Shown: piece by piece, positions 7,174 to 27,253 of the stretch
Layout of the letters: every line of letters starts with the position of its first letter
Numbering within the stretch: position 1 is the first letter of the stretch
Source of the DNA: Bacteroidota bacterium
Lineage (GTDB): Bacteria; Bacteroidota; Bacteroidia; Flavobacteriales; Flavobacteriaceae
Length of the DNA stretch: 64,000 nucleotides
NCBI GenBank assembly: GCA_018267095.1
Contig: JAFDZC010000011.1
Coordinates: forward strand, 1 to 64,000
Direction of reading: 5' to 3'
Position numbers and translations under genes: made by a program
The notes under the pieces: generated by a model
The model's input: the letters and a program-made list of their open reading frames with translations, nothing else
Told to the model about the DNA's origin: nothing
Databases searched by the model: none

Positions 7174-7764
7174 ATGAACAAAAACCGACTCGAAGCTTTT
7201 AGCGATGGTGTACTTGCCATCATCTTAACCATCATGGTCCTTGAAATCAAAGTACCTGAAGGCAACAGTTGGGATGATTTGTGCGGGTTGATTCCGGTCT
7301 TTTTTAGTTATGTGCTTAGTTTCATTTACATCGGTATTTATTGGAACAACCACCACCATATGTTGCACAGCATGACGCATGTCAACGGTAAAATCTTGTG
7401 GGCCAATTTGCATTTGTTGTTTTGGTTGTCTCTGGTTCCGTTTTCAACCGGTTGGATTGGCGAGCACCAATTTGCTCAAGCGCCCATGGCCTTGTATGGA
7501 TTTTTTCTGCTCATGGCCGGAACCGCCTATTACATTTTGCAAAGCTTCATCATCCAAAGTCAAGGCCCGAATTCTATTCTCAAAAAAGCCATCGGCAAAG
7601 ATTACAAAGGCATGGCTTCACCTATATTGTATATTATAGGGATTATTTTATCATTTTATAGTGTATGGATGGCCGGCGCTATCTATGCTTTAGTAGCGCT
7701 CATGTGGTTGGTGCCTGACAAACGCATTGAGCGCATCATCGAACACAACGATTCAAAAAATTAA
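7174..7764 (+). CDS. TMEM175-family potassium channel protein
   Basis: A 196-residue membrane protein with about six hydrophobic segments. It opens with RLEAFSDGVLAIILTIMVLEI, the FSD signature (residues 9-11) of the bacterial TMEM175 (DUF1211) family, whose studied members form tetrameric potassium-selective channels. The gene starts one base after the ppx stop, completing a four-gene run with sixA, ppk1 and ppx. Its stop overlaps the convergent dnaX stop by 4 bp. A channel in a polyphosphate operon may relate to counter-ion balance when polyanion accumulates, but this is inference from position. Confidence 0.88.
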   Translation: MNKNRLEAFSDGVLAIILTIMVLEIKVPEGNSWDDLCGLIPVFFSYVLSFIYIGIYWNNHHHMLHSMTHVNGKILWANLHLLFWLSLVPFSTGWIGEHQFAQAPMALYGFFLLMAGTAYYILQSFIIQSQGPNSILKKAIGKDYKGMASPILYIIGIILSFYSVWMAGAIYALVALMWLVPDKRIERIIEHNDSKN

Positions 7765-9526
7765 AAATCCAAATCAAAGGTTCGGCGCAGCAATTCTAAG
7801 TTCGGATTGATTTCGTTCAAACGATTGTATTTGTCCTGCGGGGTAAAGGCAAATTTGTTTTCAATGGCTTCATTGACGATTACTTCAATGGTAATATCGT
7901 GGTTGTGCAAATGCCCTCTGAGGTAACCGAGCAAACCATTTTTCTCTGATTCAAAATCAATTTTCGAACCTTCATTAGGCAGTTCAATCGTGATGTGTGA
8001 ACCATTTAAAACCGGATCATTGATGGTCAGCAACGATTCCATAATTTTATAACCTTTCTCACCGAGTTTGTTGGCATATTTGGTCCAGTACAAACGCATA
8101 TCGGTTTCGGTAAAAGGTTCGGTCGGAAGCTGTGCCGCTTCTTTCACCACCGCTTGACTGTTTTGCTGCATCTCGCGTTTGGCTTTGATGCTTGCCAAAG
8201 ATAAAGCCGAAACTTTAGGAGTCGAGTTTTGTTCTGAAGCTAAAGGCGCTGAGGCCGGACTGGATTGTTGCACCACCATTGTGGATGCTGCTGCTTCAAT
8301 CGGTGCTGGTTTGTTTGGTTCTGCCGATGCAGCTTCAGTAGTCGTTGTAGTTTCTGTTGATGGCGTTGCAGGCGGCTGAATAATTTCGGGCGCTTCAACC
8401 GGCAATTCAAGTACGCGGCCGTAAAAGTATTTGGCGGGAATTATAAATCCGTCAACTTTTTTTTTTCTCCATCAAAAGTGATAGAGGCCAATTGCATCAA
8501 ACAAAGTTCCACAAGCAAACGTTGGTTTTGCGATACTTTATAACGCAAATCACATTCATTGGCCACTTCTATGGCTTTGAGTAAAAATTCAGAAGAAGTT
8601 TTTTGCGCTTGCTCTGCGTAGCGTTGTTGTACGTGTTCACCGGCTTCAAGCAAAGTTAGCGTCGAGGGCGTTTTGCTCACGAGTAAATCTCTGAAGTGCG
8701 AAGCCATGCCTGTAATAAAATGATGACCGTCAAATCCGCGCGACAAAATATCGTTGTAGGCCATCAACAAATCCGGTATTTTGTTGGCCAAAATCAAATC
8801 GGTCATTTGCAAATAGGTGTCGTAATCGAGTACATTTAAGTTCTCGGTAACAGCTGCTCTGGTCAGGTTGTTTCCGCAATACGAAACCACTCGGTCAAAA
8901 ATCGACAAGGCATCGCGCATCGCACCATCGGCTTTGAGGGCAATGATGTGCAAAGCGTCGTCTTCAAAAGTAACGCCTTGACTGGTAGCTACTTCGGCCA
9001 AATGTTCTTTGGCATCTTTGACAGTGATGCGTTTGAAGTCAAAAATCTGACAACGCGACAAAATGGTCGGGATGATTTTGTGCTTCTCGGTCGTGGCCAA
9101 AATAAAGATGGCATGCTTGGGCGGCTCTTCTAAGGTTTTCAAAAACGCATTGAAGGCGGCTTGTGAAAGCATATGCACCTCGTCAATAATATACACTTTG
9201 TACTGACCGGTCTGCGGCGGAATGCGCACTTGGTCAATGAGGTTGCGGATGTCTTCGACCGAGTTGTTGGAGGCAGCATCGAGCTCAAAAACGTTGAAGG
9301 CAAAATCTTCGTTCGGATCGTCATAACCCGGCTGATTGATTTTGCGCGCCAAAATACGCGCACAAGTGGTTTTACCCACACCGCGCGGTCCGGTAAAAAG
9401 CAGAGCAGAAGCCAAGTGATTGGTTTCGATGGCGTTGAGCAAAGTATTGGTAATGGCCTGTTGCCCCACGACATCTTTAAAGGTCTGCGGGCGGTACTTG
9501 CGGGCCGATACAACAAATTGTTCCAT
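7761..9526 (-). CDS. dnaX: DNA polymerase III gamma/tau subunit, frameshifted at an A10 run
   Basis: Clamp-loader ATPase of the replisome. Frame 0 from 9526 encodes 361 residues: Walker A GPRGVGKT (46-53), DEVHML (115-120), a sensor region with LSRCQIF, and the three-domain clamp-loader core. It stops at 8441 shortly after a run of ten A (8457-8466). A shift of -1 in that run continues through VDGFIIPAKYF, a Pro/Thr/Ala-rich linker and a C-terminal domain to the stop at 7761, giving about 588 residues. The short product ends close to where E. coli gamma domain III ends; the long one corresponds to tau. The four-cysteine zinc module of E. coli DnaX is absent: the QPGYDDPNEDFAFNVFEL stretch has no cysteine. 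The split could be programmed slippage, a pseudogene, or a homopolymer sequencing error. An essential gene makes a true pseudogene unlikely. Confidence 0.9.
8457..8466 (-). promoter_or_regulatory. A10 slippery site in dnaX
   Basis: On the coding strand the frame-0 codons are GAA AAA AAA AAG TTG, which contains the heptamer A AAA AAG used for -1 frameshifting in E. coli dnaX. A -1 slip leads directly into GTT GAC GGA and the tau reading frame, while frame 0 terminates 5 codons later. A GGAG sequence (8467-8470) lies immediately 5' of the run. Downstream, CGGC and GCCG could form only a weak stem. Thermus dnaX is known to use transcriptional slippage at an A-run, so either mechanism is possible. 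A one-base undercall is the main alternative. Confidence 0.6.
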
Positions 9527-10040: not shown

Positions 10041-10124
10041 TAGCCCTAGCCCCGATCGAAGCGGTTATCCTTTTGTTCTGGGGTTCAGAACAAAAGATAA
10101 GAGCGCAGAGCGGGAAATAGCTTT
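10041..10124 (+). ncRNA. Structured element resembling a widespread Bacteroidota RNA/repeat motif (flavo-1-like)
   Basis: The sequence begins TAGCCCTAGCCCCGATCGAA and ends GCAGAGCGGGAAATAGC. Between them lies a strong hairpin: ATCCTTTTGTTCTG pairs with CAGAACAAAAGAT across a short GGGTT loop, with one bulged C. From memory this pattern (TAGCCC..GATxGxAGxGG..ATCC-hairpin-GATA..AGCGGGA.ATAGC) recurs between genes in many Flavobacteria and resembles the flavo-1 RNA motif. I could not check the family model. The element ends 3 bp before the rnpB promoter, so it may be read-through RNA, a terminator for upstream transcription, or a mobile repeat. Confidence 0.45.
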
Positions 10125-10161: not shown

Positions 10162-10165
10162 GCCG

Positions 10166-10459
10166 CAGGCCGCCTTATCGCTGGTAGCAATATCAGAGGA
10201 AAGTCCGGACACCGTAGAGAGACATAGCGGGTAACGCCCGTCCGCCGAAAGGCGAGGACCAGTGCAACAGAAAGGATGTACAGTTCGGCTGTAGTGAAAT
10301 CAGGTAAACTCTATGTGGTGAAATTTCAAGTATACCGGCATTTAAGGGTTTCTCGTCCGTTGCCGGAGGGTAGAAAGATCGAGCGTTCGGGTAACTGTTC
10401 GCCTAGATAAATGATAAGGGTTCCAATCATGGGATACAGAATCCGGCTTATAGGCCTGC
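10166..10459 (+). ncRNA. rnpB: RNase P RNA
   Basis: Catalytic RNA of RNase P, which removes the 5' leader of pre-tRNAs. The conserved block GAGGAAAGTCCGGAC is near the 5' end (~10196-10210). The matching 3' block ACAGAATCCGGCTTA lies at ~10436-10450. The ends pair as P1: GCAGGCC (10166-10172) with GGCCTGC (10453-10459). A run of nine T follows at once and probably terminates transcription. Length (~294 nt) and overall layout fit bacterial type A. It converges with the CotH gene. Confidence 0.95.
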
Positions 10460-10468
10460 TTTTTTTTT

Positions 10469-17449: not shown

Positions 17450-17545
17450 GTTTGGGCGTGTCCCTGCGGGTCGGGCTTTTCGTTCCCGCTTTTGGGTGCG
17501 TCGTTCCTTGGCACCCAAAGAGCTCCACTTCAATCCCTCACGCAA
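17450..17545 (+). repeat. Dispersed Bacteroidota-type intergenic repeat with hairpin
   Basis: The element runs from TTTGGGCGTGTCCCTGCGGG to TCCACTTCAATCCCTCACGC. Its centre holds a perfect 9-bp stem: TTTGGGTGC (17491-17499) with GCACCCAAA (17511-17519). From memory, similar GGGCGT..GGGTCGGGCT..hairpin..ATCCCTCACGC elements occur between genes in many Bacteroidota genomes. A fragment (AAACTTCAATCCCTCTGGCG) also occurs near 36363. It lies between the AraC and DUF1398 genes. Confidence 0.5.
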
Positions 17546-17552
17546 AACGCAG

Positions 17553-18317
17553 CTAAACGAATCGCTTGAACTTTTCAGGAGTGTCGCCGGTAAATTGTTT
17601 AAAGACCTTGATAAAATGCGCTTGGTCAAAGAAGTTGTTTTCGTAACAGATTTCCGTAAGTGTTTTGCTGGGGCCCAACTGGTCAAGAACCGCATTGAAC
17701 CGAACAATCTGCGCAAACTTTTTTGGGGTAGTGCCCACTACTTTTCTAAAGCGTTTTTCAAAAGGACTAGCACTGATGCAGAGTTTTTCGTTGAGTTCTT
17801 TGATCCGAATCGCACCCTGACTTTGATAAATGAGGTGAATGGCTTGTGCGATGAGTTGGTCTGTTTCAATATCTCTGAGTTGGTTTAGTAAAAATTGCTC
17901 AACAATTCTAATGCGTTGTCGGTCACCGGTGGCAGCGGCTAATTTTTCTTCAACCTCGGCAATAGAGCTTGGGTCAAACAACGCATCGAGCGATAGGCTC
18001 AACCCAGCCAATTCATGCGCCGGATGGGCCGCAAAATGCGTAAAACCTACTTCGGTAAAATACACCAAAACCGTCCCGATATCCACTGAATTCTGAAACA
18101 CTTTAAAGCGGTCTGTAATACCCGTGACACCCGCTGAAGAAAGTTTGTGAAGGTTATCACCATCGATGCTATTCAGTTGGCCTCTGTACTGAAAACCCAT
18201 CACTAGTGCTGTCGAGGGAAAGACTTTGTATTCACGCTCGAATGCTTGCTCTGACACTACAAAATATTTAATGTAGGGTTTGAGGCGGTCGGTGGGGAGA
18301 TGTTGATCGAATTTCAT
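17553..18317 (-). CDS. AraC family transcriptional regulator
   Basis: About 254 residues from the ATG at 18317; an alternative ATG at 18341 would add 8 residues. The N-terminal ~150 residues (HLPTDRLKPYIKYFVVSEQ...FPSTALVMGFQYRG) match the small cupin-like sensor region of this AraC subgroup. The C-terminal ~100 residues carry the two helix-turn-helix motifs, with RIKELNEKLCISASPFEKRFRKVVGTTPKKF and FFDQAHFIKVFKQFTGDTPEKF. It probably controls the neighbouring DUF1398 gene. Ligand unknown. Confidence 0.9.
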   Translation of the reverse strand: MKFDQHLPTDRLKPYIKYFVVSEQAFEREYKVFPSTALVMGFQYRGQLNSIDGDNLHKLSSAGVTGITDRFKVFQNSVDIGTVLVYFTEVGFTHFAAHPAHELAGLSLSLDALFDPSSIAEVEEKLAAATGDRQRIRIVEQFLLNQLRDIETDQLIAQAIHLIYQSQGAIRIKELNEKLCISASPFEKRFRKVVGTTPKKFAQIVRFNAVLDQLGPSKTLTEICYENNFFDQAHFIKVFKQFTGDTPEKFKRFV

Positions 18318-18539: not shown

Positions 18540-18571
18540 CTCAGGTACTCAGGTACTCAGTATCTCTAATA
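18540..18571 (+). repeat. CTCAGnnn octamer repeat, locus 4
   Basis: CTCAGGTA, CTCAGGTA, CTCAGTAT, CTCTAATA. The last unit overlaps the stop codon of the giant minus-strand gene (18566-18568). Confidence 0.6.
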
Positions 18572-21500
18572 AACCATAATCTTCTTACTCACCACGCCGT
18601 TTGAAGTTTTCACTTTGACCAGATAGGTTCCCTGACTGATGTGCGGTACCGGAATTTGAATGTTCTTTTTGTTTTCAACTTCCCATAGTGCGATGCGTTG
18701 GCCCAACAAATTATATAAAAATACCTTTTCAACGATGGTTTGCAAATCTTTGTTTTGAATGTTCAAACTGTGGCTGAGGTTGGTGTATTGAATCAGCAAT
18801 GAGCCCGAAGCAAAGTCATCGGTTCCGAGCGTTTCAGTGGTAAATCGAACCGAGAATCGATCGTCGTAATCACCCGCCGCCAGTGTTACGGTAAAGGAAC
18901 CATTCTTGAGATTGTGGTAGATTCCGGTCGTGTTGTCCAACAGATAAACTTCAGTGGCTTCGGGTATATTTTCAAGCGCGTCAATCTTAATGGTTGCTTC
19001 GCCCGGATTTGAAATTTTAAGCCCTAACGGTAGGATGCGATCCAAATTAAAATCTGCTACCGCCTGAATCACAAACTTGTGGTTGCTGACGCTCCAGTAC
19101 ATATCGTCATTGTTCACATCCATCATCACAGCATCATAGCCCAAATCAAATAAATCGGTAGTTTGTGGGTCAGCGCCCACCAAAAGTTGACGATGCAATC
19201 CGTCCGGCGAATCAAAACGCATTCTGATTTTAGGTCGCAAATCAGCGTTTGCGGCACTGGTCGCCGTAGTGTTGTGGCTACGCATAAATACTGACTGAGC
19301 CGCCGATTCTACCTGAAAGGCGCGTTGACTGTTTTTTAATACAATCGGTCCGCCGGTAACGGCTGTGGTTAAATTCGGATTGACCGTAACCAAAGTCGGA
19401 TCCAAAACAGTTCCGACAAAGAAACCTTGTCCCACCGGAATATACCTTTGCGGTGTCAGTGTACCGATGGCTCCATTGTGATTGATCAAAACGTTGTTAG
19501 AAATTGCCGGAGCGCCACCCATCAGGGTATAAGTGGCATAACCGCCAATATATGAAGCCAATATATGGGTCTGCCCGGCAAAATGGTTCCAAAATGACAA
19601 GGCCCCATTGATCACGTTGGTACTGTTTCTACCTGCGCCATCTTTGATGTTGTCTTTGATAAACTCATCGGCATCTAAAGCAGACGGATACGGGTTCCCA
19701 ATCAAATAAAGCTGATTCGGAGCGATGTTTAAAAAGATGTTCCCATTGTTGGGTTTACCTGCAAACACATAGTTTTGCGCATCGGTGATGTTGGCCGTTC
19801 CATCGGTTCCTTTCATCGTAAATCCTTCGCCCACTTTGATGTTTCCGGTACTACCGGCAAATTGCCAACCTGCATAAACAGTGCTCACACTGGTGTATTT
19901 GTAGAGCCAGTACTCGCTGAGGTTGATCGGGCTTGAAAGCGCTCCATCGGCAAAATAAGGACCGGCGCCAAAATTGATTAAGCCCGGCGCAAATGGGTTG
20001 GTGGTTACATCAGAGCCATCGCGTAAAACATCGCCAATGGTATAATCAAGGCCGTTTTCGCTCACCGGTGATGACCAATAATTATAGTTAAAACTACTGC
20101 GGGTACCTTGTTGATCGCGGTAAATTTTGCCTGTACCCGTTGTTGGGTTGGCTACCGATCCCGATTGAAGAATTTGCGCTTCGCCGGTAAGTCGGATGTC
20201 ACCGCTTTGTAAGGACAATAAATTGGCAACCGTGAGCTCATAACCATTGGCCAAACTAACGCCTTTGGCTCCGTTGGAGGTATTCAGGGTTAGGTTATAA
20301 AAGGTTTCGTTGGTTTTGATGCCTGCGTTGATGGTTTGAATTTGGTTCGGTGTCGCTCCGGTAAAGCTTACCGTTCCTTGCCCTGGTATAAAAGTGCCGC
20401 TGTTTTTCCAATCGCGACTCACGTACAAATCTGAATTGGCAGTCATGGTTACCGAAGCTGTGGCTCCGATAATCAAATCTTGGGCATCGGCTATATTGCT
20501 GTATAATATAGCAAAAGGTGAGGTAGCCGGATCAATCAAAGGCATGCGCACAGCACCCGAAGGAATTTGTGCATCAATGGTAGCCGAGGGCAATCCGCCG
20601 GCCCAGTTTCTGCAATCAAACCAATCGGTGCTGACGAGTCCGGTCCACAAGCCCGGGGTTCCGTTGATGACTGTTACAGCGGCTGCGCCGGTCATATCAG
20701 CCGCACCAGCGGTACAACCCGCATCGCTCAAAGCTGTCAGGGTATAGGTAGCATCGGCAGTGATGTCGGTTACACTAAAAACATAAGGATTGGTGTTGAT
20801 GTTGTTGATCGTGGTGGTTGTACTTCCGTCGCTATAGGTAAGGCTCCAAGGCGCGGTGCCGGTCAAGGTCACACTAAAAGTAGCGGTGCCGTGGTTGCAG
20901 ATGTTTTGGTCCGGACCAAAATTGGCGGTTGGGTGGGTGCAAACGCTCGCGGTACAAGTGGCTGTTGCAGCTATAAAACAAGCTCCCGAACTGCCTGTAG
21001 GAGTGACAGTAATAATCACCACATCGTTTTCATTCAAACCTGTCACGGTATATGTAAGCACATTCCCCACAGAACCTATGGTAATTGGTGCAGCGGCATT
21101 GACTTGATAGCTCACCTCATAATCGGTGGCTCCGGCAAGTGCATCCCAATCAAAAGTAATCGATGAAGCGCTGGTGGTACCACAATAAATGGTGGGGGTT
21201 GATGAACCCCCGGTGACCAACACATCGGTACTTGCTACATTACTTGGACAGCCAGTACCATCGAGCACCATCACGTAATAAGTGCCCTCACCCAAGCCTG
21301 TAAAAATATTACTGCTCTGATAGGTCGCTCCACCATCAATGCTGTATTGAAATGGAACCGTTCCGCCCGATATGGTGACCGTGATGGTTCCGTCGCTCAA
21401 CCCACAACTGGTAGAGGTGGCTGTAGCGGTTATGGTGGCTCCTTGTAAATCCAGAAGTGTTACGATCAGCGAGGTTTTACAGCCATTCGCATCGCGTACC

Positions 21501-24500
21501 CAAACCGTATAGGTGCCTGCGCCAAGTCCGCTGAGGATGTTATCGGTTTGGTAGGTAATATCATCACTGCTGTATTCATAATTAGGTGTGCCACCAATAA
21601 CAGTGAGCATGATGGATCCGTTGTTGAAGCCACAAGAAGCATCATAGACTACTGCAGTTAAACTTTGTGGACCTATAGTATCATTGACCAAAACTACTCT
21701 GGTAGTTAAACATCCATTTCCGTCATGCAACACCACTGTATAATTACCCGGAAATAACAAGCCCGAAGTGTTGCTGCTGCCAAAGGTCAAGCCGCCGTCA
21801 AAGCTATAGGTGTATGGCAATGTACCTCCAGTGGCCGTAACGGTTATGCTTCCGTTTTGTGCACCACAACTGGCTGCCACCACCGAAGTTGTAAAACTAG
21901 CCGCTGAAAGGTTTCCAAGGGTTACCCCCGAAGTCACCACGCAACCGCGGTCATCTTTTAAGTATACTGTATAAAACCCAGCGGGTAATCCGGTAAAAAC
22001 GTTGTTGCTTTGGTATACGGTTCCGTTTAAACTAAATTGATACGGAGCCAAGCCTTGTGATCCCACCACAAATAGAGCACCGTCGCTGTTGCTGCAGGTG
22101 GCTGCTGCAGTAAAAGCAGTCACAATTGGGATGCTGCCTACTGATATAATTTCGGTAGAGGTATTGACACAACCAACCGCATCTTTGATGTACACTGTGT
22201 AAACATCTGCCGGTAAGTTGTTGAATAAATTACTGGTTTGATAGACCGTTCCATTCAAGCTGTACTGATAAGGCGCTGAACCACCACTGCCGATCACGGT
22301 AATCATTCCATTACTTAACCCACACGAAGTATCCGAAGTCAAAACACTCAGCGATGGACCACCAGTGTTGGTAATGGTAACAGTTGAGGTCTTTATACAA
22401 CCGGCGCTATCCATCACACTGATGCTGTAGGTTCCGGCACTGAGCCCCGAAAAGTCACCACTGGTATCATAAGGGTTACCGTCTATACTGTAGGAGAATG
22501 GTGCGCCACTGCCACCTGATCCAACAGCTGTAATGGTACCATTGGCCAAATTACACGATTCGTTGGTTGAGTTAACCGACAAGGTAGGACTACCGGTTGT
22601 GGCAGGCACCACAACGGTCAAGGTGGTCACACAATTGGGTCCCGGAGGGTCCGGATCAAAGCCTGAATCATCGGCCATGAGTATTGTATAATTGCCCGGT
22701 GCATAACCGGTGAGGGTAACGCTGGTATTAAATTGTGACCAAGTGAGTCCGTTGTCTGTACTGTAGTGATAAGGCGGGCTTCCGCTTCCGTTGGTTCCGG
22801 TTAGGGTAATTTGTCCGGTGCTTGACCCGCAAGGTGAACCAATGACCGCAACTGTAGCAGTAGCCCCGTTGGTGTCATTCACCGTAAACGGAACAACTTT
22901 GGTACAACCCGAAGCATCTTTGGCAATAACATAATGTTGACCCGGACTGATGTTGGTATAGTTATTTCCGGTCAAGAATGGTCCAAAATCTAAACTAAAC
23001 GTACACGAACTACACGAAGCGCCATTGACTTTAAAATTCTGAATTTTGCCCAAGGTACCATCACAAACCAAGGCATCTTTGAGGGTAAAAGTAAAAGTGC
23101 TGATGCCCGGACCGCTGCCGGTATTGGTGACCACGAGCCCTGATTGGGTGACGATGCAACCGGTGGCATCTTTGAGATAAACCGTATAAGTACCGGCCGC
23201 CACATTCAAAAAGGTACCTGATGATTGATAGGTCGTTCCGTTGATGCTATAAGTTAAGGGGGCTGAACCTCCGCTGCCGCTGGCCATAATAACCGCATTA
23301 TTCGAGGCACAACTTCCTTGCAATACTACCGAGGCGCTCAAGCTCAATCCGGTTAAGGAGGCAATCACGGCTTGTTTGGTGACAATGCAATTATTGGCAT
23401 CTTTGACATTGACGGTATAAGTGCCCGGCGCTAATCCGCTAAAGATGTTGCTTGCTTGATAGGCACCGCTGTTGATGTTGTATTGCAAAGGCGCCACTCC
23501 GCCACCGGCTGTAGCGGTGATGATTCCGGTGTTGCCGCAAGAGGAGGATATGGCACTCAGTGTCAGCGAAAGACCTGAAGCATTGTTTACGGTGATACTG
23601 GTAGTTTTGATACAACCATTGGCATCTTTAACATAAACGGTATAAGTATTGGGTGCTAAATTCGTAAATGAGTTACTGGCCGAATAGGTCACACCATCAA
23701 TGCTGTATTGCAACGGAGCCGCCCCACCGGTTCCGGTAGCAGTGATGGTTCCATTGTTGACCGTACAAGCGGCGGGGGTACTCACGGCGGTAATGCTGGG
23801 GCCAGCCACCGGATTGACAACCACCAAGGCTGCGCCGGTACAACCTTGGGCATCCCGCACAAAAACAAAGTAATTGCCTGCTGCTACACTCGTAAAAATA
23901 TTGCTCGACTGATAGGTTGTTCCGTTGATGCTGTACGTAAAAGGCCCAATGCCCGTAGGGGTAATGGTAATGGTTCCGTTGGCGGTACTACAACTGGCAG
24001 GTGTTGAGGTTCCTGAAGCCGAAGGACCTCCGGTGCTTCCTACAAGAGCCGTAGTCGTAGCAATACAACCACTGGCATCTTTTACGGTTACCGTATAACT
24101 ACCGGCGGATAATCCGCTAAACAACGGGCTGGTTTGAAAGGTAGTTCCATTGATGCTGTACTGCAACGGAGCTACACCACCGCTTCCGCTGGCGGTAATG
24201 GTTCCGTTGATGTTGCCGCAAGCCGCGTTGGTGGTTGTAGCCGTGATACTCGGCAGCGGATTGCTATCGACCGTTACGGTTACCGAACTCGTACAACCAA
24301 TGGCATCGCGCACATATACGGTATAATTGCCCGGGCTTACATTGTTAAAAATATTACCGGCTTGAAAAGTGTTGCCGTTGATGCTGTATTCTAAAGGATT
24401 TGTTCCGCCGCTGCCAAAAGCGGTAATGGTTCCGTTGTTTTGTCCGCAGGTTGCCGAGGCCGGTATGGCATTAAACACAATAGCCGGGCTCGTAGCAATG

Positions 24501-27253
24501 GTTACTAAAGCACTGTTGGTACAATTGGCGGCATCTTTTACAGTCAAAACGTATGAACCTGCCACCAATCCGGTAAAGAAATTCCCGGTTTGATACGGAT
24601 AACTCACCGTTCCTGTCATGCTGTATTGGTAGGGTGCGGTTCCACCGGTTACACTTGTGGTCACCGTTCCTGAGTTGTTACCGCAGGTGGCATTGGTTTG
24701 CGTAAAGCTAATGTTCGGACCATTGCTGTTGAGAATATTCACCGTAGAGCTGTTCGGGCATCCACCTGAACCTTGGACCATCAAAGTGTGAACACCGGCG
24801 GCCAAACCGCTAAAAATACCACTGGCCTGAAAAGCACCACCGTCTAAACTATAGTTGTATGGGCCAGCAGAACCCGAACCCACTGCATTGATGGCTCCGG
24901 TATTGGCCCCGCAAGTAGTATTGGTTTGCGTAAAAGTAATGGTAGGACCCGGCAAGATAAAGGTGGTGGTAGCTTGTGTACCACTACAAGCTGAGTTCAC
25001 CGTGGCTACTACGGTATAAGTCACATTCGGACTGAGCCCCGTAAATACGGCCGGAGTAGTAGCAGTGGTATTGATGGTTGCCAATTGGGTAGTGCCCGAA
25101 AATAAAACATACGTCACCGTTGCATCGGCTGGTGGGGCGGGGCTAATCGAAACGCTGGCACTGGCCGTAGCACAATTCGGAACGGCAGTCACGGTATAAA
25201 TCGTAGCCGGGCAATAAGCGGTAATATCTACCGAAGCTACAAAACCATTGCCACTGGCGTAGAGTAATTTTTTAGATTCATCTAAAGCCAAATCATACAC
25301 ATTGGTATTGTATCCGGCAATGCTGATGTCGGGTGCTGCTGCATCGTTAAAAGTAGTTCCGTTGAATTGATACACTTTGATCGTACCGTTGGTGTTTCCG
25401 ATATACACATTATTACAAGCATCGGCTACAATTCCGCCTTGCATCAAAAGGGTATTGGTAGCAATGGTCACAGGTGTTCCGGCAATGGCTCCGGTGGTTT
25501 TATTAAAAGCTTCTAAATGCTGGCCATCCCAATAAAAAACATAGGTAGCATTTTGTGCTAAGATGTTGGATGAATTATCGTTATAGCCGGTGGCCAAATA
25601 CGGACGGTTGGCCAATTCATTGATCACAGTCGGATAGCCGGTAGCAGTGCTCCAAGCGGTAGATGCCGCGCTGTATGGCGGATTGGTTTTATATAATTTA
25701 TTACCGGTGGATGGGTCGAGCGGCGAGGCGTAAATGGTATATAAACTATTGGTGACCGGATCTACAATCAAATCGGTCATGTCTTGCCCGATGGCTGAGC
25801 TGCCGGTGAGATTCACAGCAGCGCTCAGTGCAGTGGCTGGCGGAGCGCAATACGCAAAATTAGTAGGTCCTGTAGTACCACCTCCGGCACAAATGATTTG
25901 CGGGCTTCCGCTGTTGCATACCCAATACATCTTCCAGGCTTCTTGAAAGGCCGGATCACCAGTTGAAATATAATTGTCATACAAACCCGTGGTATTGAGC
26001 CTGATCACTCTAAATCCGTTGGTGGCATAACCTTGACCGATGTATAAATTACCGGTGGCTTTGTCTACCACCCAGCCGCCATAATAAAAATCGGCTTGCC
26101 AAGACGGGATGGTAAGAACCCCGTTAAAGGTCCATTCTAAAACACCGGCGCTGTTGTATTTGGCGTGTTGGTGGCTGGCGCCTGCTGCAAACGAGGTCAC
26201 CAAACTACCCCCGCCGGCCACATATACATTGCCGTTGTAATCAAAATCTACATCAATGGCTTTGCCTGCATTGACCCCGGTCAGATTGCTGGTGCTGGTT
26301 ACAAACGGGTCAATCACCAAAGCTTGATTGTGGTCATAGCCTTCGGGGAATGAAAAGCTAACCTCGGTACCCGATAGGTGATACTCAGTCTTGATTTGTG
26401 CAGTGGCCTGGTTCAATAAACTTTCACCGTAATACGACACCGGAACCGAACACGAGATTCCGTCAATATCTGAACGAATGATGAGGTTACCCAAACGATC
26501 GGTTTTTATTTTTTGGATATCGCCCCCGTATTTGAGTTTTACTGCGCTGAGGTTGGCTCCGGGTTTTACGAGTAAACTGTATTCAAACCCCGGTTTACTT
26601 GTGGCGCTAAAACTGTAGACCAGGTCAATGCCGGGATATAGGTTTCGGTAGATGATTTTTTTGTAGCCAAAGGCTTTTTCCTGAAGCATGCCATAAGTGT
26701 GGTAATCCGTGGTTTTTTCGGCGGCAATGATTTCAACCTCGGGATTGGCGTCCAACCACTCTGCGGTAATAACGCGGTCGGTAATGGTGAGTCGGCGTTC
26801 AATTTCTTCTTCACGAATACCTTGTTTTTCGAGCTTTTCTTCTTCGGCATGCGAGATTCTTTTGTATTCGCGGTGTAGGTGAATGATTCCTTTGTCGGTC
26901 AACAAAACAGGCATATCCAGCCCTTCATATCCGTATTTGATCGCGCCCAATGATTCATAGCCTTTGAGCGTAGCACCGTATTGCCCCATGTTTTTGATAA
27001 ATGAAGCAGGGTTGGTCAAAGCAGCTTGAACTTTAACCGCTGTAGTGATTTCAGGAGATGTGGGTGTATGACCTTTTAAAGCAGCACTGGTCCAGCTTTT
27101 AGAAGTGGTCAGCGTACTGCTTGGGGTGACCGGAACCGGTACACCTGACTTGATATCTGCGGAAACCTGACCAAAACCAAGTTGAAACACCAAAAGCATC
27201 AGCGCTGTGATGATTTTGTTTGAATATAAAATGAGGGTAGTTCTATAATTCAT
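18566..27253 (-). CDS. Giant SprB-repeat surface protein with T9SS sorting domain
   Basis: A 2895-residue exported protein. The signal peptide ends near FQLGFGQ. Residues ~80-320 look like the DUF7948-type N-terminal domain (FIKNMGQYGATLKGY...NLYPGIDLVYSF). Residues ~325-680 contain propeller-like repeats (VYVAGGGSLV, LYIGQGY, VYIGNTNGTIKVY). From about 768 to 2015 I count 16 consecutive ~78-residue SprB-type repeats, each with C-(N/S)G-(T/S)IT, a GG-PYQYSxNG-like strand, and AGTYTVxVKDAxGC. Then come a fibronectin-III-like domain (~2020-2110), a cysteine-bearing Ig-like domain, a ~600-residue region with GLWTGLVSTDW, and a C-terminal type A T9SS sorting domain ending VVSKKIMVY. SprB repeats are named for the gliding adhesin SprB. 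An adhesive surface role is inferred. Confidence 0.93.
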   Translation of the reverse strand: MNYRTTLILYSNKIITALMLLVFQLGFGQVSADIKSGVPVPVTPSSTLTTSKSWTSAALKGHTPTSPEITTAVKVQAALTNPASFIKNMGQYGATLKGYESLGAIKYGYEGLDMPVLLTDKGIIHLHREYKRISHAEEEKLEKQGIREEEIERRLTITDRVITAEWLDANPEVEIIAAEKTTDYHTYGMLQEKAFGYKKIIYRNLYPGIDLVYSFSATSKPGFEYSLLVKPGANLSAVKLKYGGDIQKIKTDRLGNLIIRSDIDGISCSVPVSYYGESLLNQATAQIKTEYHLSGTEVSFSFPEGYDHNQALVIDPFVTSTSNLTGVNAGKAIDVDFDYNGNVYVAGGGSLVTSFAAGASHQHAKYNSAGVLEWTFNGVLTIPSWQADFYYGGWVVDKATGNLYIGQGYATNGFRVIRLNTTGLYDNYISTGDPAFQEAWKMYWVCNSGSPQIICAGGGTTGPTNFAYCAPPATALSAAVNLTGSSAIGQDMTDLIVDPVTNSLYTIYASPLDPSTGNKLYKTNPPYSAASTAWSTATGYPTVINELANRPYLATGYNDNSSNILAQNATYVFYWDGQHLEAFNKTTGAIAGTPVTIATNTLLMQGGIVADACNNVYIGNTNGTIKVYQFNGTTFNDAAAPDISIAGYNTNVYDLALDESKKLLYASGNGFVASVDITAYCPATIYTVTAVPNCATASASVSISPAPPADATVTYVLFSGTTQLATINTTATTPAVFTGLSPNVTYTVVATVNSACSGTQATTTFILPGPTITFTQTNTTCGANTGAINAVGSGSAGPYNYSLDGGAFQASGIFSGLAAGVHTLMVQGSGGCPNSSTVNILNSNGPNISFTQTNATCGNNSGTVTTSVTGGTAPYQYSMTGTVSYPYQTGNFFTGLVAGSYVLTVKDAANCTNSALVTIATSPAIVFNAIPASATCGQNNGTITAFGSGGTNPLEYSINGNTFQAGNIFNNVSPGNYTVYVRDAIGCTSSVTVTVDSNPLPSITATTTNAACGNINGTITASGSGGVAPLQYSINGTTFQTSPLFSGLSAGSYTVTVKDASGCIATTTALVGSTGGPSASGTSTPASCSTANGTITITPTGIGPFTYSINGTTYQSSNIFTSVAAGNYFVFVRDAQGCTGAALVVVNPVAGPSITAVSTPAACTVNNGTITATGTGGAAPLQYSIDGVTYSASNSFTNLAPNTYTVYVKDANGCIKTTSITVNNASGLSLTLSAISSSCGNTGIITATAGGGVAPLQYNINSGAYQASNIFSGLAPGTYTVNVKDANNCIVTKQAVIASLTGLSLSASVVLQGSCASNNAVIMASGSGGSAPLTYSINGTTYQSSGTFLNVAAGTYTVYLKDATGCIVTQSGLVVTNTGSGPGISTFTFTLKDALVCDGTLGKIQNFKVNGASCSSCTFSLDFGPFLTGNNYTNISPGQHYVIAKDASGCTKVVPFTVNDTNGATATVAVIGSPCGSSTGQITLTGTNGSGSPPYHYSTDNGLTWSQFNTSVTLTGYAPGNYTILMADDSGFDPDPPGPNCVTTLTVVVPATTGSPTLSVNSTNESCNLANGTITAVGSGGSGAPFSYSIDGNPYDTSGDFSGLSAGTYSISVMDSAGCIKTSTVTITNTGGPSLSVLTSDTSCGLSNGMITVIGSGGSAPYQYSLNGTVYQTSNLFNNLPADVYTVYIKDAVGCVNTSTEIISVGSIPIVTAFTAAATCSNSDGALFVVGSQGLAPYQFSLNGTVYQSNNVFTGLPAGFYTVYLKDDRGCVVTSGVTLGNLSAASFTTSVVAASCGAQNGSITVTATGGTLPYTYSFDGGLTFGSSNTSGLLFPGNYTVVLHDGNGCLTTRVVLVNDTIGPQSLTAVVYDASCGFNNGSIMLTVIGGTPNYEYSSDDITYQTDNILSGLGAGTYTVWVRDANGCKTSLIVTLLDLQGATITATATSTSCGLSDGTITVTISGGTVPFQYSIDGGATYQSSNIFTGLGEGTYYVMVLDGTGCPSNVASTDVLVTGGSSTPTIYCGTTSASSITFDWDALAGATDYEVSYQVNAAAPITIGSVGNVLTYTVTGLNENDVVIITVTPTGSSGACFIAATATCTASVCTHPTANFGPDQNICNHGTATFSVTLTGTAPWSLTYSDGSTTTTINNINTNPYVFSVTDITADATYTLTALSDAGCTAGAADMTGAAAVTVINGTPGLWTGLVSTDWFDCRNWAGGLPSATIDAQIPSGAVRMPLIDPATSPFAILYSNIADAQDLIIGATASVTMTANSDLYVSRDWKNSGTFIPGQGTVSFTGATPNQIQTINAGIKTNETFYNLTLNTSNGAKGVSLANGYELTVANLLSLQSGDIRLTGEAQILQSGSVANPTTGTGKIYRDQQGTRSSFNYNYWSSPVSENGLDYTIGDVLRDGSDVTTNPFAPGLINFGAGPYFADGALSSPINLSEYWLYKYTSVSTVYAGWQFAGSTGNIKVGEGFTMKGTDGTANITDAQNYVFAGKPNNGNIFLNIAPNQLYLIGNPYPSALDADEFIKDNIKDGAGRNSTNVINGALSFWNHFAGQTHILASYIGGYATYTLMGGAPAISNNVLINHNGAIGTLTPQRYIPVGQGFFVGTVLDPTLVTVNPNLTTAVTGGPIVLKNSQRAFQVESAAQSVFMRSHNTTATSAANADLRPKIRMRFDSPDGLHRQLLVGADPQTTDLFDLGYDAVMMDVNNDDMYWSVSNHKFVIQAVADFNLDRILPLGLKISNPGEATIKIDALENIPEATEVYLLDNTTGIYHNLKNGSFTVTLAAGDYDDRFSVRFTTETLGTDDFASGSLLIQYTNLSHSLNIQNKDLQTIVEKVFLYNLLGQRIALWEVENKKNIQIPVPHISQGTYLVKVKTSNGVVSKKIMVY

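Follow-up and report, generated by a model that had tools for sequence, protein, structure and literature searches.

The dnaX gene analysed here lies on the minus strand of a 64,000-nt stretch of DNA from a Flavobacteriaceae bacterium (positions 1 to 64,000 of contig JAFDZC010000011.1, assembly GCA_018267095.1), which as a whole we call the window. The gene is laid out as two reading frames that meet at a run of ten As, and its features are as follows.

7761..9526, minus strand: whole dnaX coding region; τ would be 588 aa long with one A added in the mRNA or with a −1 shift of the ribosome (computed length; expression inferred).
8441..9526, minus strand: dnaX frame-0 ORF encoding γ, 361 aa (AAA+ region, lid and domain III; PF13177, PF22608, PF12169, NF011531 positions 1–369, TIGR02397).
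8467..8486, minus strand: predicted RNA hairpin adjoining the run, 8-bp stem and 4-nt loop (fold of 8457–8492, codon null, compensatory changes).
8472..8474, minus strand: TGA closing the tail frame just 5′ of the run, which limits the site of the shift (sequence).
8457..8466, minus strand: A10 slippage run, read in frame 0 as GAA AAA AAA AAG with A_AAA_AAG inside (sequence; a run of at least nine As in 320 of 331 distinct dnaX loci).
8441..8443, minus strand: TAA stop of frame 0, terminating γ (sequence).
7761..8471, minus strand: τ-specific tail in the −1 frame, from stop to stop (NF011531 positions 411–612; dN/dS).

The γ frame begins with the ATG at 9526, and a coordinate check in the window placed the ten As at 8457–8466 of the minus strand with a G on both flanks. 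Counted from the AAG at the end of the run, the TAA at 8441–8443 is the fifth codon further on; this confirms, for the minus strand, the split at ten As proposed in the first-pass annotation, with a frame-0 stop five codons on. The −1 frame, which a single extra A would reach, stays open through the tail to its stop at 7761–7763. Since the TGA at 8472–8474 closes the tail frame and the TAA at 8441–8443 closes that of γ, the shift is confined to ∼28 nt that include the run; to judge from the sequence, the A10 run is the obvious place for γ and tail to be joined. The length of 588 aa for the joined product is a computation only.

Some other features of the window are recorded here as side observations: a bacterial RNase P class A RNA (10162–10466, plus strand), two matches to the Flavo-1 RNA family (10044–10121, plus strand, directly beside RNase P, and 17465–17558, minus strand) and an ORF of 2895 aa (18566–27253, minus strand).

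Both parts of the gene are recognizable as DnaX. The γ part has Pfam matches to the AAA+ region (PF13177), the DnaX lid (PF22608) and domain III (PF12169, residues 222–348) and ends just beyond the last of these, in agreement with the earlier suggestion that the frame-0 product stops near the end of domain III; it aligns to positions 1–369 of the 614-position DnaX model NF011531 (NCBIfam) and is also matched by TIGR02397. The tail, searched as the 232 aa encoded by 7761–8459, has no Pfam family at its cut-off and aligns to positions 411–612, the C-terminal part, of NF011531 (E-value 1.2e-27). This match and the open frame bear out the view that the −1 frame leads into a τ-like tail ending at 7761. 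The window thus carries the two-ORF form of dnaX, a γ ORF followed by the τ tail in a different frame.

For comparison we collected 341 dnaX loci, of which 333 were distinct and 331 could be classified (L241 was unclear and L311 truncated); sampling covered the genus, its family (with close to one locus for each genus), its order and its phylum. Sixteen Flavobacterium places (13 distinct) were added for their unusual frame lengths and are a non-random sample; the enlarged set holds 346 distinct loci, 344 of them classified. A locus was called continuous when the tail follows in frame 0, split (−1) when it lies in the frame seen in the window and split (+1) when it lies in the third frame. Among the 331 loci there are 162 continuous, 162 split (−1) and seven split (+1) genes. 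This count takes L276 as split (−1), its frame stopping at 354 aa and being followed by a frame of 235 codons in the −1 phase with no run at the junction; among the 344 loci, where L276 is still counted as continuous, the numbers are 171, 164 and nine.

The run of As is far more constant than the frame. At least nine As stand at the junction in 320 of the 331 loci: 155 of the 162 continuous genes, 158 of the 162 split (−1) genes and all seven split (+1) genes. Outside the junction, the 575 kb of these 331 dnaX genes hold only ten runs of that length. The family set comprises 142 loci and covers 141 genera in addition to the window's own (two places at contig ends, G213 and G239, were left out); with one locus per genus, the run is present in 139 of 141, while the states are 116 continuous, 24 split and one unclear. 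Beyond the family it was found in 42 of 44 loci of the same order, 17 of 18 of the same class and nine of 15 others of the same phylum; these loci are a part of the matches and partly hand-picked, so that state frequencies there are not unbiased. The run is retained in 16 of the 19 genes in which AAA makes up less than 0.45 of the lysine codons, and among relatives it occurs in all three codon registers.

Stops close to the run are equally general. Among the loci that have the run, each non-tail frame meets a stop in the first 36 nt in 149 of the 155 continuous genes and in 156 of the 158 split (−1) genes; at control positions farther along the tails of these genes the figures are 38% (continuous) and 34% (split −1). 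The counts are inflated by shared ancestry, and the pattern is seen in both states. In a tree of the γ part built with FastTree, where L276 is carried as continuous, the state changes 43 times among the 344 loci, compared with 114–128 times in 30 shuffles of the labels, and eight of the changes fall inside the 105 Flavobacterium loci. The tree indicates that the frame state is inherited yet frequently switching. The simplest reading of these sequences is that both products are made from these genes, whatever the frame of the DNA.

Four apparently split (−1) loci have no run of nine: L276 (longest run A6, with only short A runs near the stop) and L283 (A8), both of the window's family, and L320 (A8) and L321 (A6), both of its order. 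These four speak against the slippage reading proposed below.

Directly 5′ of the run, 8467–8486 form an inverted repeat with an 8-bp stem and a 4-nt loop that ends exactly at the first A. The predicted fold of 8457–8492 has an MFE of −9.3 kcal/mol (z −3.42), and one of 200 shuffles was equally stable. In 104 aligned Flavobacterium rows the top codon reaches shares of 98, 96, 100 and 98% at codons 347, 349, 352 and 353, and 78% at codon 348; the median over 283 conserved codon columns is 64%, and just 16 of them reach 95%. The synonymous constraint at the four codons appears to be due to the inverted repeat.

An abutting hairpin (−5 kcal/mol or lower, at most 3 nt from the run) is predicted in 114 of 116 loci of at least 84% identity and in 93 of 116 at 75–84%, with 1.1% in controls. 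Grouped by code, 52 of the 53 loci from the genus have it, as do 92 of the family's 141 other genera; the remaining 49 genera lack it. When synonymous codons were randomised by each gene's own usage, this codon-preserving null was beaten (p ≤ 0.05) in 182 of 232 loci of at least 75% identity as compared with 6% of 1998 control windows; the protein sequence therefore does not account for the hairpin. Compensatory changes point the same way in one of three measures. In 83 distinct sequences, changes on both sides of a pair that keep the pairing occur in 28 cells, with 11.2 (sd 2.8) in shuffles, none of 500 of which was as high, and with at most 19 in structures slid along the alignment; values above those of shuffles can also arise in this test from relatedness among the rows. 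Pairs changed on both sides number four (3.4 in shuffles, with 205 of 500 reaching this number), and further pair types number 15 (12.5 in shuffles, with 21 of 500 reaching it). RNAalifold, run on a short alignment of the same rows, recovered only four of the eight pairs at −0.47 kcal/mol and gives less support for the hairpin than do the frequency of abutting hairpins and the compensatory changes; we think that this weak result comes from divergent rows in which the register of the hairpin is shifted.

Below 75% identity the codon null was beaten in only eight of 101 loci, and abutting hairpins were predicted in 17 of 101 as compared with ∼2% of control positions. A hairpin common to the phylum was unsupported on the former count, and because the signal is this weak we claim the hairpin for the Flavobacteriaceae only. 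The run would then be the widespread component, to which the Flavobacteriaceae have added the hairpin. At the run and hairpin, Rfam gave no match at gathering thresholds and a scan for terminators found none.

One family of the order, f5 (L167, L169, L290, L291, L293–L295, L297–L300, L303, L305 and L307–L309), makes a natural contrast to the Flavobacteriaceae: all 16 of its loci are split (−1) with A10–A12, in a different codon register. An abutting hairpin of −5 kcal/mol or lower was predicted in none of the 16.

We consider it quite probable that the best explanation of these observations is programmed transcriptional slippage at the A10 run, assisted in the Flavobacteriaceae by a hairpin in the nascent RNA and yielding γ and τ whatever the genomic frame. 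Once RNA polymerase has transcribed the run, formation of the hairpin in the RNA exit channel would be followed by melting of the weak A:T hybrid at its upstream end and by realignment of the transcript, so that mRNAs with A10 and mRNAs with extra or missing As would coexist. Those with A10 (or 10+3n) would give γ, ending at the stop at 8441–8443; those with one A more (or two fewer) would give τ; in the third phase a stop close by would leave a γ-sized product. If slippage fills all three phases, the genomic frame would hardly matter, and this would explain why the tail is found in frame 0, −1 or +1 among relatives. The A-run would be the core of the element over much of the sampled phylum, and the hairpin its stimulator in the Flavobacteriaceae. 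What the sequences themselves show is the split of the frame, the A-run and the predicted hairpin, each with its conservation; the steps of slippage are what we infer from them.

Several known marks of slippage are seen together at these loci: a run of at least nine As, nearby stops in both other frames and a direction of shift that is unconserved among orthologues. Runs of nine or more As slip efficiently in bacteria according to passages in two sources (PMC5009743; PMC6260861), and a mixed direction of shift among orthologues points to transcriptional realignment by a criterion that appears in part of Antonov et al. 2013 (PMC3711429). Transcriptional slippage, for which it makes no difference in what codon register the run is read, most likely accounts for the whole ensemble.

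In Escherichia coli, dnaX uses a −1 ribosomal frameshift at A_AAA_AAG. Such a shift, in which the ribosome and not the polymerase slips to yield τ, is the strongest of the other explanations, and we regard it as improbable without dismissing it. Of 164 split (−1) loci (L276 again counted as continuous), 117 have the heptamer A_AAA_AAG in frame at the run, among them all 43 that group code places in the window's genus. The two tRNA-Lys found both have the anticodon UUU, in a set of 35 tRNAs that is incomplete (150 of 206 candidates were scored, and tRNA-Ile(GAU) and tRNA-Ala(UGC) are missing). A sole tRNA-Lys is named in a passage of a review (PMC5009743) as making the E. coli site shifty; with the in-frame heptamer and with UUU as the only tRNA-Lys anticodon found, the condition of E. 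coli, ribosomal shifting could contribute in the window's genus.

Against this route, nine loci would require a shift in the opposite direction (three of them, L062, L402 and L403, could be homopolymer errors), continuous loci retain the run with no need of a shift for τ, 47 of the 164 split (−1) loci have no in-frame A_AAA_AAG, and at least nine As are maintained though seven positions suffice. A 101-nt fold of the window includes a 3′ pairing beginning inside the run (total −20.7 kcal/mol, z −1.64, 11 of 200 shuffles as good), which speaks for the ribosomal route; over the set of split (−1) loci the mean 3′ structure is −6.68 kcal/mol per 60 nt as compared with −7.64 in controls, that is, no excess. 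Over the set 3′ RNA structure is unsupported as a stimulator, and in the window's dnaX it may act as one. A GGAG that might serve as a Shine–Dalgarno-like stimulator adjoins the run and is also part of the hairpin; the corresponding stimulator of E. coli dnaX has a larger spacing than this GGAG has from the run. The hairpin itself lies 5′, and an upstream hairpin is reported to attenuate −1 frameshifting in human cells (PMC6321510). The first-pass annotation had offered both routes: the heptamer is indeed in frame, whereas transcriptional slippage fits better than a −1 ribosomal shift with the two directions of shift, the loci without the heptamer, the lack of excess 3′ structure and the position of the hairpin.

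Run length and frame within the genus bear on two further explanations. We assigned 105 distinct loci to Flavobacterium by named records or by genus code. As in the window, 93 of them are split (−1), 92 with A10 and one with A11; nine are continuous (seven with A10 and two with A11), and three (L062, L402 and L403, with A9 or A12) are split the opposite way. Because loci picked for unusual frames are included, these counts lean against the split state. In the seven continuous loci with A10 the difference lies downstream of the run.

Replication slippage in the DNA, which would toggle cells between a state making only γ and one making τ, accords with the presence of A9, A10, A11 and A12 within the genus, but the length is nearly constant, with A10 in 99 of the 105 loci, and such phase variation leaves both the nearby stops in the two other frames and the hairpin unexplained. 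Moreover, dnaX is a replication gene, so that a heritable τ-off state should be lethal. We judge this explanation very unlikely.

Still less credible is an undercall of one A in the assembly of a gene that is in fact continuous. Homopolymers are error-prone, and two of the nine continuous Flavobacterium loci do have A11; the same A10 split, however, recurs in 92 of the 105 loci, and its sources span isolates and metagenome bins, as judged from the record titles of the best 80 of 585 matches. The γ stop lies 13 or 10 nt past the run in 93 of the 101 split (−1) loci of at least 84% identity, the tail frame opens at position −5 relative to the run in 89 of those 101, and seven of the nine continuous loci are themselves A10. 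The earlier proviso, that relatives with 11 As and a continuous frame would point to such an undercall, is thus answered by a genus in which only two loci have that form.

The dN/dS of the tail is 0.09–0.19 in eight of nine pairs, the ninth (the window and L006) being saturated, and these ratios indicate purifying selection on the tail, less strict than on γ. Past the run, a median of 318 nt separates it from the first ATG of the tail frame, and just four of the 101 split (−1) loci of at least 84% identity have one in the first 60 nt (GTG and TTG were uncounted); no ATG near the beginning of the tail is conserved among these loci. A split gene with γ and tail as separate proteins, or a pseudogene with a decaying tail, is barely plausible: two ORFs are what an annotator would be expected to call, but the tail is under the constraint just described, it has no conserved early ATG from which a free protein could start, and the run persists in continuous relatives.

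We return to slippage at the A10 run as the preferred explanation. The genome of 3.13 Mb has 16 places with ten or more As. Judged by the open frames, three of these are gene-internal with the As on the coding strand: the run in dnaX, that of L342, where a predicted secreted protein starts, and that of L348. The runs of L345 and L349 overlap open frames of 140–176 codons. L348 (G000:C9:466098-466107, minus strand) is a gene-internal A10 in an ORF of 322 aa, with a predicted hairpin of −9.6 kcal/mol before the run; a run of at least nine is found in one of the 29 relatives fetched, and the gene is far less conserved than dnaX. Being unconserved, the run of L348 looks accidental.

Parts of a 2012 review (PMC3290774) state that most bacteria besides enterobacteria and Thermus are without a dnaX frameshift signature and may not make γ. 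By our counts most sampled members of the window's class, and some of the wider phylum, do keep such a signature. From sequence comparison, what looks like a breakage at ten As is very probably a conserved switch for a short and a long clamp-loader protein and not an assembly error, and the switch most likely works by RNA polymerase stuttering at the run, with the help of a small hairpin next to it in the RNA. The full claim goes further, and we regard it as evenly poised between right and wrong: that Bacteroidota make γ and τ through stuttering at about ten As, kept in most of the class and in parts of the phylum; that the element is indifferent to frame, with drift among 0, −1 and +1; that in the Flavobacteriaceae the slip is driven by the hairpin; and that in the split genes all τ, and hence chromosome replication, depends on slippage. 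If true, slippage driven by a hairpin would here operate in a core replication gene instead of a mobile element, with the geometry of a terminator in which A replaces U.

The genus and family form a natural series, with the same run in three genomic phases and with the hairpin present or absent, in which the effects of run length, hairpin and phase on polymerase slippage can be measured. It is also an opening for studying the purpose of γ outside E. coli.

The nearest known system is the two-ORF dnaX. Antonov et al. 2013 describe a type of dnaX that needs recoding for τ (17 genes from 12 genera, nine of them with 10 As), and suggest transcriptional realignment for it (PMC3711429). The layout and slippage at A10 were therefore already published in 2013, and the dnaX of the window is a member of that class, with τ likewise in the −1 frame behind A10. 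The first-pass annotation had supposed that the logic is reversed, the unshifted product being γ and the recoded one τ; this agrees with the published layout, and passages of a 2016 review also record the reversed roles (PMC3711429, PMC5009743). The 2013 screen was of split genes, whereas here continuous and oppositely split relatives keep the run, and a 5′ hairpin is added. A literature search, with most subscription papers outside its scope, found no description of the 5′ hairpin, of the persistence of the run in continuous relatives or of the switching of frame. As far as that search goes, the abutting hairpin with its compensatory changes and the frame-indifferent conservation of the run are the new additions, and would interest a specialist.

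With E. coli dnaX the window shares the in-frame heptamer, tRNA-Lys UUU as the only one found and, as proposed here, two products; it differs in that the roles are reversed, the run of ten is kept in other phases in relatives, a hairpin stands 5′ and the set has no excess of 3′ structure. In Thermus thermophilus, according to parts of two sources (PMC5009743, PMC1088944), dnaX undergoes slippage on nine As; common to both are an A-run near the end of the γ region, stops in both other frames and one gene for γ and τ (proposed in our case), but the genomic frame of Thermus encodes τ and that of the window γ. An insertion sequence of Roseiflexus offers the closest likeness to the hairpin. There, as a portion of the 2016 review describes (PMC5009743), a stem-loop directly 5′ of the slip motif enables slippage and is pictured in the RNA exit channel, and the inverted repeat of the window likewise lies immediately 5′ of its slip motif. 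The Roseiflexus element has a T5C5 motif, gives a one-base deletion only and is mobile, whereas the window has A10 in a housekeeping replication gene. Though its A10 motif, in place of T5C5, leaves it no member of that class, the element in the window may, by analogy, work like the stem-loop slippage of Roseiflexus.
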